Made by a program: the position numbers and the translations under genes. Shown here piece after piece: positions 1-11,072 of a stretch of DNA of 11,073 nt. The stretch is from an archaeon (GTDB lineage: Archaea; Thermoproteota; Nitrososphaeria; Nitrososphaerales; UBA183), in assembly GCA_021786335.1 (NCBI GenBank), contig JAJYNM010000049.1:1-11073 (forward strand). Direction: 5' to 3'. The notes beneath the pieces are model-generated. The model did not search any database, had not been told where the DNA came from, and was given only the letters and a program-made list of their open reading frames with translations. Within the stretch, counting starts at the first letter, position 1; each line of letters begins with the position of its first letter.

Positions 1-21
1 CCCGACGGGAATCGAACCCGT

Positions 22-36
22 TTAGGGGCGTCGGCT
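22..36 (-). other. tRNA intron in the variable loop, canonical bulge-helix-bulge
   Basis: This 15-nt insert (AGCCGACGCCCCTAA on the minus strand) lies between variable-loop base 5 and the T-stem. A full bulge-helix-bulge can be drawn. The outer helix is CCCG (46-43) with CGGG (20-17). The central 4-bp helix is AGGG (42-39) with CCCT (27-24). The 3-nt bulges are TCA (38-36) and AAA (23-21). The inner GC/GC stem closes a CGAC tetraloop. Cutting after the second base of each bulge gives variable loop GGGTC joined to a perfect 5-bp T-stem. This is the substrate form of the archaeal tRNA-splicing endonuclease. Confidence 0.88.
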
Positions 37-67
37 GACCCTCGGGTTAAAAGCCCGATGCTCTACC

Positions 68-85
68 TGAGTTCTCTCCAGTTGT
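68..85 (-). other. tRNA intron in the D-loop, relaxed bulge-helix-bulge
   Basis: An 18-nt insert (ACAACTGGAGAGAACTCA on the minus strand) enlarges the D-loop. A central helix AGTT (91-88) with AACT (73-70) can form, with bulges CCA (87-85) and CAG (69-67). Cutting after the second bulge base restores D-loop AGTTCCGGTA, including the GG that docks on the T-loop. The outer and inner helices are weak, so the exact ends could shift by one to three bases. That an insert is present is certain from the loop length; the boundaries are an inference. Confidence 0.72.
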
Positions 86-128
86 GGAACTAAGCTACGG
101 GCCCGCGCCACCCGTCGCCTTGCGTCCT

Positions 129-138
129 GTATTTTACT
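129..138 (-). promoter_or_regulatory. TATA-like box of the tRNA-Lys gene
   Basis: The minus strand reads AGTAAAATAC, centred about 29 nt ahead of the tRNA 5' end at 104. This is the usual spacing for an archaeal TATA box. It falls just past the endonuclease IV stop codon, so the tRNA can be transcribed independently of that gene. Confidence 0.5.
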
Positions 139-147
139 GTGAGCAGC

Positions 148-984
148 CTAAGCCAGCAAGCTCCGGACCACTTTCATGGTCTTTCTCTCGGCTGCTACGT
201 CCTTGTAAGGAGTCTCCATTATAATCGGTCTTTCGGTTATCCCAGGGCAGCGCAGGAATTCCTTAATCCCCCGACGCCCTATCTTTCCTTCCCCTATGTT
301 CTCGTGCCTGTCAAGCCTGCTCCCTAAGGCCCCCTTCGAGTCGTTGAGGTGGACAGCCTTCAGCCTGTCTAGCCCCACGATTTCGTCAAAGAGACCCATC
401 GAGCGCTCCACCGCGTCCTTGGTAGCGAGGTCGAACCCTGACGCATACATATGGCAGGTGTCGAGGCAGATTCCCATTCTCCCATCATCCCTGACCTTGG
501 CGAGTATCATCTCGAGCTCTTCGAACCTCGCCCCGACGCTGTTCTTCTGCCCCGCCATGTTCTCGAGGAGTATCGTCGTTTCCCCTTTGCTCCCGGCTAT
601 GGCTTCGTTGCATGCCTCGGCGACGTTGGCGACCCCTACCGCAATCCCCTTACCCATATGACTCCCCAGGTGGATGACCAGGTAGTCTATCCCGAGGGCG
701 TCGCAGCGCTTGACCTCCTCGTTGATGGAGTACCGGCTGATCTTCATGGTAGACGTCTCCGGGGATGCCAAGTTGGGGAGGTATGGCATGTGGTCTATGA
801 CCCTCTTGAACCCTGACTCCTTCCTCTTCTCGCGGAATGCCGCGATCGTCTCGTCTGGAATAGGCTTGAACTTCCACTGGTTCGGGTTCCTGGTGAAAAT
901 CTGGAACGTGGTGGCACCAATCTCACTTGCGCGGTCGAAGGCGAGGTCAATGGAGCCTGCTGTTGAGACGTGCACCCCGAGCAT
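148..984 (-). CDS. nfo: Endonuclease IV (AP endonuclease, base-excision repair)
   Basis: This is a 278-residue TIM-barrel AP endonuclease, close to the family's usual 280. It cuts DNA 5' of abasic sites using three metal ions, typically zinc. In numbering from the upstream TTG at 999, all nine metal ligands are visible: H70, H110, E146, D180, H183, H217, D230, H232 and E262, in the motifs VIHLGSH, LLENMAG, CLDTCHMYASG, HLNDSKG, LDRHENIGEG and METP. I chose the ATG at 984 because its protein begins MLGVHVS, as archaeal homologues do, and because a TATA-like box near 1030 would give a leader of about 20 nt. The TTG at 999 adds five residues and remains possible. The gene is followed by the tRNA on the same strand. 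Confidence 0.97.
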   Translation of the reverse strand: MLGVHVSTAGSIDLAFDRASEIGATTFQIFTRNPNQWKFKPIPDETIAAFREKRKESGFKRVIDHMPYLPNLASPETSTMKISRYSINEEVKRCDALGIDYLVIHLGSHMGKGIAVGVANVAEACNEAIAGSKGETTILLENMAGQKNSVGARFEELEMILAKVRDDGRMGICLDTCHMYASGFDLATKDAVERSMGLFDEIVGLDRLKAVHLNDSKGALGSRLDRHENIGEGKIGRRGIKEFLRCPGITERPIIMETPYKDVAAERKTMKVVRSLLA

Positions 985-1017
985 TGACCCTGAAGTCAAT
1001 ATGCCTCAAAAGAGGGA

Positions 1018-10216: not shown

Positions 10217-10639
10217 ATGCGCCTCTCGGTGGCAGGCACCGTGTTCAGCGGGATGGGGAAGGGGAAGTACTACGTGGGCCACCCCGAGTACCAGAGGCGA
10301 TTCAGGGAGCGGCTGGGGTACCTCCCCTACCCCGGCACCCTCAACGTGAAGCTCGACGACAGAGAAGTGATACGGAGGCTCGGGGAGGTCAGGTCCGCTG
10401 ACGGGTTGAAGATAGAGGGGTTCACCATGGGCGGCGAGGCGTTCAGTTCGCTGACAAGCTTCGAAGGGGAACTGAGGGGGGAGAAGGTCACCCTTCTCTT
10501 CATCGACGTCACCTACTATAACGAGACGGTTGCCGAGCTCATCTCCCCGACCTACCTCCGGGGCAAGCTCGGTCTGAAGGACGGCGACCCGGTTACCTTC
10601 AGCGTCGACGTGCCCAGCCGTCCCCAAGGTAGACCATGA
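10217..10639 (+). CDS. CTP-dependent riboflavin kinase family protein, copy 1
   Basis: This 140-residue cradle-loop barrel protein would make FMN from riboflavin using CTP. Family motifs are FSGMGKGKYYV (10-20, nucleotide loop), PYPGTLNV (37-44, in which Thr41 and Asn43 match the Mg-binding pair of the Methanocaldococcus enzyme MJ0056), and ELISPTYLRGKLGLKDGD (107-124). The mid-section is unusual: FSSLTSFEGEL replaces the more typical (F/Y)GGVK-type strand, and VTYYNET replaces the TH(Y/H)-type segment. Start is ATG at 10217. Its last 41 bp overlap the 3' end of the second copy on the other strand. It stands alone, without an HTH domain. Confidence 0.88.
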   Translation: MRLSVAGTVFSGMGKGKYYVGHPEYQRRFRERLGYLPYPGTLNVKLDDREVIRRLGEVRSADGLKIEGFTMGGEAFSSLTSFEGELRGEKVTLLFIDVTYYNETVAELISPTYLRGKLGLKDGDPVTFSVDVPSRPQGRP

Positions 10640-11072
10640 CGGCGCACTCGTCCCCGTCCTCCAGGCCGAGAGACCGCCTGAGGTTGATCGGAGAGATCAC
10701 CTCAAGGACGGAACTGTCATGGTGCGTCCTTTCTATGGCGAGGACAGCCCCTGGATGTCTCCCTGCCACCTTGGCCCTGAAGCACTTCACGCCTCCATAG
10801 GACCTCGTCCCGTCGGTGAAGCCGGGGATCTCAATACCCTTCAGCAGCTCGAGGCGCCGGCGCTGCCCTACCATCGCCTCGCTGGTAAGGCGGAGGTTGA
10901 GAGTCCCAGGGTATGGCTCGAAACCGAGGGCCCTGGCGAAGCCGCCGGCGTACCCTTTCAGCGAGAGGTAGTAAGCCCCCTCCTTCAGCCCTGTGAACAC
11001 GGCTCCGCGGAACTGCATTGTGTCCCTCCCCCTCTCCAGGTTTGCACCCACGTCGGCCAGAAAGGTCTCCAC
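10599..11072 (-). CDS. CTP-dependent riboflavin kinase family protein, copy 2, possibly an HTH fusion cut by the window edge
   Basis: The frame is open to the right edge, giving at least 157 residues. The kinase domain begins at about residue 20 (QFRGAVFTGLKEGAYYL), with PYPGTLNLRL (54-62), IPGFTDGTRSYGGVKCF (82-98), ERTHHDSSVLEVISP (114-128) and LRRSLGLEDGD (131-141). This is closer to the usual archaeal pattern than copy 1, though the second glycine of the nucleotide loop is Lys (GLKEG). Many archaeal versions carry an N-terminal winged-helix domain, and residues 1-18 (ETFLADVGANLERGRD) look like its linker, so the gene may continue outside. Alternatively it starts at ATG 11018 behind GGGGGAGGG as a 139-residue stand-alone enzyme. 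Confidence 0.88.
   Translation of the reverse strand: METFLADVGANLERGRDTMQFRGAVFTGLKEGAYYLSLKGYAGGFARALGFEPYPGTLNLRLTSEAMVGQRRRLELLKGIEIPGFTDGTRSYGGVKCFRAKVAGRHPGAVLAIERTHHDSSVLEVISPINLRRSLGLEDGDECAVMVYLGDGWARRR

Follow-up and report, generated by a model that had tools for sequence, protein, structure and literature searches.

The tRNA-Lys(UUU) gene at one edge of the 11,073-nt stretch of archaeal DNA analysed here (the window) appears to be a functional gene, single as far as it was searched for, whose transcript would lose two non-canonical archaeal introns through the action of a heteromeric splicing endonuclease and the ligase RtcB; we assign this reading a probability of about 0.96. One of the introns, of 15 nt (AGCCGACGCCCCTAA, positions 22..36, minus strand), lies between C48 and A49, at the border of the variable loop and the T-stem. 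The other, of 19 nt (71..89, minus strand), interrupts the D-loop at 15/16. The basis for this reading consists of the sequence itself, the splice motif, conservation among relatives, covariation, and enzyme genes (the beta subunit being found in relatives only); that the gene is transcribed and its product cut and ligated in vivo, and in which order the two excisions occur, is inferred. The first-pass annotation had described positions 22-36 as a bulge-helix-bulge (BHB) intron of a tRNA-Lys(UUU), and both the coordinates and the strict motif proved exact to the base. Its view of this element as an intron of the V-loop/T-stem region gains further backing from the conserved spliced product, the covariation of the intron and the two-subunit endonuclease of the family.

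The gene occupies positions 104..1 of the minus strand (5' end at 104), so that the window edge falls within its acceptor stem. The window corresponds to positions 34397-45469 of contig C66 (83561 bases), and the last 4 of the 108 gene bases lie just beyond window base 1, in locus L019. Because the contig extends beyond the window, the entire 108-nt gene is present, and the 3' end that had been described as missing is contained in this locus. In the direction of transcription, the order is the acceptor strand GGGCCCG, the D-arm (GCTTAG-TTCCACAACTGGAGAGAAC-TCAGGTAGAGC), the anticodon arm CGGGCTTTTAACCCG with the anticodon UUU at 49..51 (minus strand; sequence and ARAGORN), the variable loop GGGTC, the 15-base insert and ACGGGTTCGATTCCCGT. 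Removal of both introns from the 108 nt leaves a mature tRNA of 74 nt, with the discriminator and without CCA, rather than the 75 nt given earlier. A putative TATA-like box (GTAAAATA, 130..137, minus strand) is situated 26-33 bases upstream of the tRNA 5' end, and a similar element is seen in relatives (upstream 60 bases, 12 loci). Directly upstream of the tRNA is a gene for an AP-endonuclease-2 or endonuclease IV-like protein (148..999, minus strand; PF01261), which served as a synteny anchor. At the other side of the window, two CTP-dependent riboflavin kinase-like genes (PF01982; 10217-10639 on the plus strand and 10599-11072 on the minus strand) are convergent and overlap by 41 bases.

The motif at 48/49 (46..17, minus strand) is a complete BHB in the strict sense, with a 4-bp helix between two 3-nt bulges on opposite strands. 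It reads, in order, CCCG, AGGG, TCA, GC, CGAC, GC, CCCT, AAA and CGGG; these segments form an outer helix CCCG/CGGG (46..43/20..17), a central helix AGGG/CCCT (42..39/27..24), the bulges TCA (38..36) and AAA (23..21), with the predicted cuts after TC and after AA, a 2-bp inner helix GC/GC (35..34/29..28) and the tetraloop CGAC. Energy minimization of the local segment yields precisely this structure, at -11.4 kcal/mol. Among 20000 shuffles of the 15 intron bases, 6 combined a 4-bp central helix with an inner helix of 2 bp or more, and none of 2000 adopted the exact BHB fold; uniform random 15-mers gave the two helices in 70 of 20000. All these rates apply to a fixed position and leave the freedom to look elsewhere uncounted; conservation is the stronger evidence. 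If both cuts are shifted one base later, the spliced product is the same. The insert is not placed one base 3' of the anticodon, as a canonical 37/38 intron would be. With both introns removed, ARAGORN recovers the cloverleaf of a tRNA-Lys(ttt), and it recovers none from the unspliced gene.

The second intron was recognized by comparison of relatives and from a relaxed motif. Its central helix has 3-4 bp, formed by the 5' strand of the D-stem, GCTT (GCUU), with the intron, and the bulges in this gene are AGU and ACU. No outer helix is seen, which makes this motif weaker than that in the variable loop.

Homologous genes were collected with the endonuclease IV gene as the anchor. A tRNA with both introns lies just downstream of it in 21 of 31 loci compared (L021-L041), out of 65 fetched. 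From 59 locus hits, some of which repeat one genome, 24 distinct homologous genes were obtained, and these contain 18 different V-loop introns (15-21 nt) and 23 different D-loop introns (16 to 21 bases), as opposed to 4 mature sequences that are nearly identical to each other; in 20 of the 24 the mature tRNA is the same. Thus, the introns vary while the exons are conserved. A looser scan yielded 5 further versions of the V-loop intron (14-18 nt), bringing the total to 23, of 14-21 nt; the pair counts given below refer to the original 18 and exclude these later ones.

The intron hairpin covaries across the homologous genes. At the second position of the inner helix, 10 of 18 introns have C-G, 7 have G-C and one is unpaired (G/G); pairing in 17 of 18 was reached by only 7 of 20000 permutations. 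All four pairs of the central helix are kept in 14 introns and three pairs in the other 4, the outermost pair A43-U being lost (A-C or A-G) in 4 of 18. The inner helix is reduced to 1 bp in the intron of L039. The local minimum-energy fold departs from the drawn BHB in 8 of the 18 introns, half of which (4/8) still show the central helix along with the 3' bulge. A MAFFT alignment of these short segments was discarded, and since it misaligned the inner helix between length classes, the pairs were counted in register by a script.

The V-loop intron is present in 36 of 46 genomes of family f1. A pattern spanning both intron sites matched 32 of these genomes, every one of them (32/32) with the insert, and four more carriers are G214, G301, G302 and G311; the remaining 10 genomes gave no match by the patterns searched, perhaps because their genes are incomplete or diverged. 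The D-loop intron accompanies it in 34 of the 36 genomes. It is absent from G310 and G311, the two genomes of genus g73 in which the gene could be read, where the V-loop intron is kept. Outside the family, the uninterrupted 30-base form occurs in at least 32 genomes by a hand count among the matches listed, which leaves out one 30-base match that does not look like a tRNA (G076). The loose pattern gave many chance matches, and two tRNA-like matches of other spacing (G005 and G259) stand outside the count. Among the uninterrupted relatives, G016 and G032, for example, show GGGTC again as the loop that leads straight into the T-stem. With a D-loop free of the intron in g73, and with genes in other families that lack any interruption, the gain and loss of these introns could usefully be timed here.

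Introns in the tRNA-Lys gene were also seen in genomes assigned to other families. In G171 (family f7; L210, G171:C8) the tRNA-Lys(UUU), the same isoacceptor and from the same order, has a canonical intron at 37/38, of 14 nt by eye, and none at 48/49, so that its intron sits in the anticodon loop, in contrast to those described here. Both introns were also found in G345 (family f12; L208, G345:C37), on a 3.3-kb contig. This genome may be misbinned, because the DNA downstream of its tRNA resembles L029 by eye; in view of the possible binning error, and with 8 of the 9 f12 genomes yielding no tRNA-Lys that fits the pattern, we do not extend the range of the introns to that family. Matches in two other f12 genomes (G247 and G340) were read as chance. 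As for the identity of f1, a record of Ca. Gagatemarchaeum stordalenia (L043) shares its tRNA-Lys gene with the f1 genome G307, which suggests that f1 is probably Gagatemarchaeaceae, the Group I.1c family listed in GTDB as f_UBA183 (PMC10640624, in excerpt). In the available main text of that study, tRNAscan-SE is described as having been run on such genomes, and the word "intron" occurs 0 times.

In practical terms, the gene is passed over by ARAGORN and by Rfam at its gathering cut-off. Neither found a tRNA in the window, and a whole-genome Rfam search scored only part of the gene (model positions 9-63) at 27.7 bits, with the cut-off at 29. ARAGORN detected no tRNA in the gene with only the V-loop intron spliced out; it called tRNA-Lys(ttt) once the D-loop intron alone was removed, reading the V insert as the variable region. 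In the closed genome G096, there is one pattern match to a tRNA-Lys(UUU) among the matches listed, and none of the 27 Rfam tRNA hits carries CTTTTAA, from which we conclude that Rfam overlooks the tRNA-Lys(UUU) there as well. Other tRNA genes of the lineage (L187, L200 and L206 of G096, and further RF00005 hits) show apparent V- or T-arm introns by eye.

Could the lysine tRNA gene be a decayed copy, with another intact tRNA-Lys(UUU) doing the work? The failure of standard finders would be in line with this, the genome itself (G000) is only 78% complete and a missing copy is possible there, and one relative, G262, does have a second, uninterrupted tRNA-Lys(UUU) (L111, G262:C8:7735-7789). That copy looks bacterial by eye, is located on another contig and is probably contamination. 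A second intact gene, which the first-pass annotation had named as the observation that would overturn its reading, was looked for in G000 and did not turn up: by pattern there is one gene among the matches listed, as in the closed G096. The only other match in G000 (C22:34409) has no tRNA around it by eye, and L019 is the sole carrier of CTTTTAA among the 19 Rfam tRNA hits of the genome. The exons, moreover, are nearly invariant among relatives, so a decayed gene has a very small probability, and the tRNA-Lys(UUU) gene is most likely functional and hence spliced, with the 78% completeness of the assembly kept in mind.

The insert might instead be kept in the mature molecule as a long variable arm of the class II type, never being removed. 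ARAGORN does call a tRNA-Lys with the V insert left in and the D-loop intron out, and GGG and CCC of the insert could pair as a short arm. Archaeal tRNA-Lys, however, belongs to class I. Moreover, where class II tRNAs conserve a long variable region in the mature tRNA, the insert is diverged in sequence and ranges from 14 to 21 nt, while the splice motif is fixed and the spliced product nearly invariant; uninterrupted relatives have a 5-nt loop, some of them with the same GGGTC. A retained arm is therefore highly improbable. That the assembly is wrong here, or that a mobile element has recently left a scar, is hardly credible, since the insert recurs at the same site, with diverged sequences, in 36 of the 46 family genomes, and the gene lies about 38 kb from the nearer end of its contig. 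It is true that tRNA genes are targets of integration and that 5 of the 19 tRNA hits of this assembly are at most 100 bases from a contig end (L002, L004, L013, L014 and L016, on C68, C58, C20, C1 and C17, respectively); at those five ends, the assembly may have been interrupted by repeated tRNA sequences or by sites of integration.

Enzymes that would serve the splicing of the tRNA-Lys(UUU) transcript are encoded in the family. G000 has one PF01974 gene, of the catalytic alpha type, whose best match among solved structures is the tRNA-splicing endonuclease 3p1z (E = 2.1e-43). Aligned to 3p1z, it displays the loop GYYGKPLGIPKPKD and the motif DHAPY, which contains the catalytic His. K44 and R46 of the aligned loop are discussed in PMC12397907 (in excerpt). 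The structural beta subunit was not found in G000, which fits the 78% completeness of this genome. Elsewhere in f1, the two types were separated by the matched range and score, leaving out G253 with two genes of the second type; the second type has neither the loop nor the DHAPY motif (as read in 8 genomes, L173-L180), and in the aligned beta subunit of G096 the loop is absent and KKPAKY stands in place of the motif. With regard to the heteromeric EndA for which the first-pass annotation proposed to check, genes of the alpha and beta types occur together in 24 of the 46 family genomes, two of which, G096 and G169, have a listed completeness of 100%; in G000, alpha alone was found. RtcB is present in all three genomes searched (G000, G096 and G169).

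In the proposed mechanism, the transcript would form the BHB at 48/49 through pairing of the intron CCCU with A43-G46. The heteromeric endonuclease, composed of alpha with its lysine-bearing loop and the structural beta, would cut between the second and third base of each bulge (UC/A and AA/A), and RtcB would then ligate the exons, so that the variable loop again reads GGGUC and the T-stem pairs ACGGG with CCCGU. The relaxed motif at 15/16 would be excised likewise.

The positions of the two introns share one feature. The cuts (window positions 37 and 90, minus strand) fall immediately 3' of C48 and G15, respectively, which we take to be the partners of the Levitt pair, a tertiary pair known for its archaeosine modification in archaea. 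The adjacency of both cuts to this pair may be due to chance. We consider it unlikely, though worth stating, that the introns are non-random and kept for a purpose, either as a splicing checkpoint of the tertiary core (for instance, by delaying core folding until G15 or C48 is modified) or, in the case of the V-loop intron, by breaking the stretch from the anticodon to the 3' end that is used by integrases.

No paper on this tRNA-Lys was found in the open-access literature searched. The size of the V-loop intron, which had been placed near the lower limit, is in fact typical, published sizes running from 11 to 129 nt around a median of 15 nt (PMC3218864, in excerpt), and most archaeal tRNA introns having 12-25 nt (PMC4090602, in excerpt). 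According to PMC4090602 (in excerpt), motifs may be relaxed and positions non-canonical in lineages with an alpha2-beta2 endonuclease, among them Thaumarchaeota. The introns described here resemble those of Thermoproteales, which are likewise short, occupy many positions, form BHB, hBH or HBh' motifs and are processed there by an alpha2-beta2 enzyme (PMC4033280 and PMC4090602, in excerpt). The positions named for Thermoproteales in the excerpted review (20/21, 22/23, 25/26, 29/30, 30/31, 45/46, 53/54, 56/57, 59/60, "etc.") do not include 48/49 or 15/16, in a list that is open-ended (PMC4090602).

Caldiarchaeum represents a lineage related to Thaumarchaeota. Its species Ca. Caldiarchaeum subterraneum has a tRNA-Thr(GGU) with introns at 24/25 and 45/46, and is similar to the present case in having two introns per tRNA, one of them in the variable region, with BHB motifs (PMC3293823, in excerpt). 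The differences are that here the tRNA is tRNA-Lys, the positions are 15/16 and 48/49 and both introns are widely shared in a family, whereas the extra intron of Caldiarchaeum is variable inside a single population (PMC3293823, in excerpt). The earlier statement that introns next to the T-stem are known mainly from Thermoproteales and some Thaumarchaeota needs correction: D-, V- and T-arm introns had been described beyond Thermoproteales before, e.g., in Caldiarchaeum (PMC3293823, in excerpt), and a thaumarchaeal BHB model exists (PMC8450103, in excerpt). For archaea, tRNAscan-SE 2.0 counted 673 non-canonical introns across 217 genomes; its BHB covariance model was built from thaumarchaeal introns, which are of the same lineage and intron class as the one studied here (PMC8450103, in excerpt).

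Overall, the V-loop intron belongs to a known kind, the non-canonical tRNA introns of archaea, of which it is an ordinary and clean example. Two points are mildly new: the combination of 48/49 with 15/16 as positions, where either cut immediately follows a base of the Levitt pair, and the presence throughout a family. It makes a well-supported, family-wide addition to the non-canonical introns recorded for archaeal tRNAs, and one whose host is probably a Group I.1c thaumarchaeal family, not hyperthermophiles, at a junction, 48/49, that goes unnamed in the review list as excerpted (PMC4090602).
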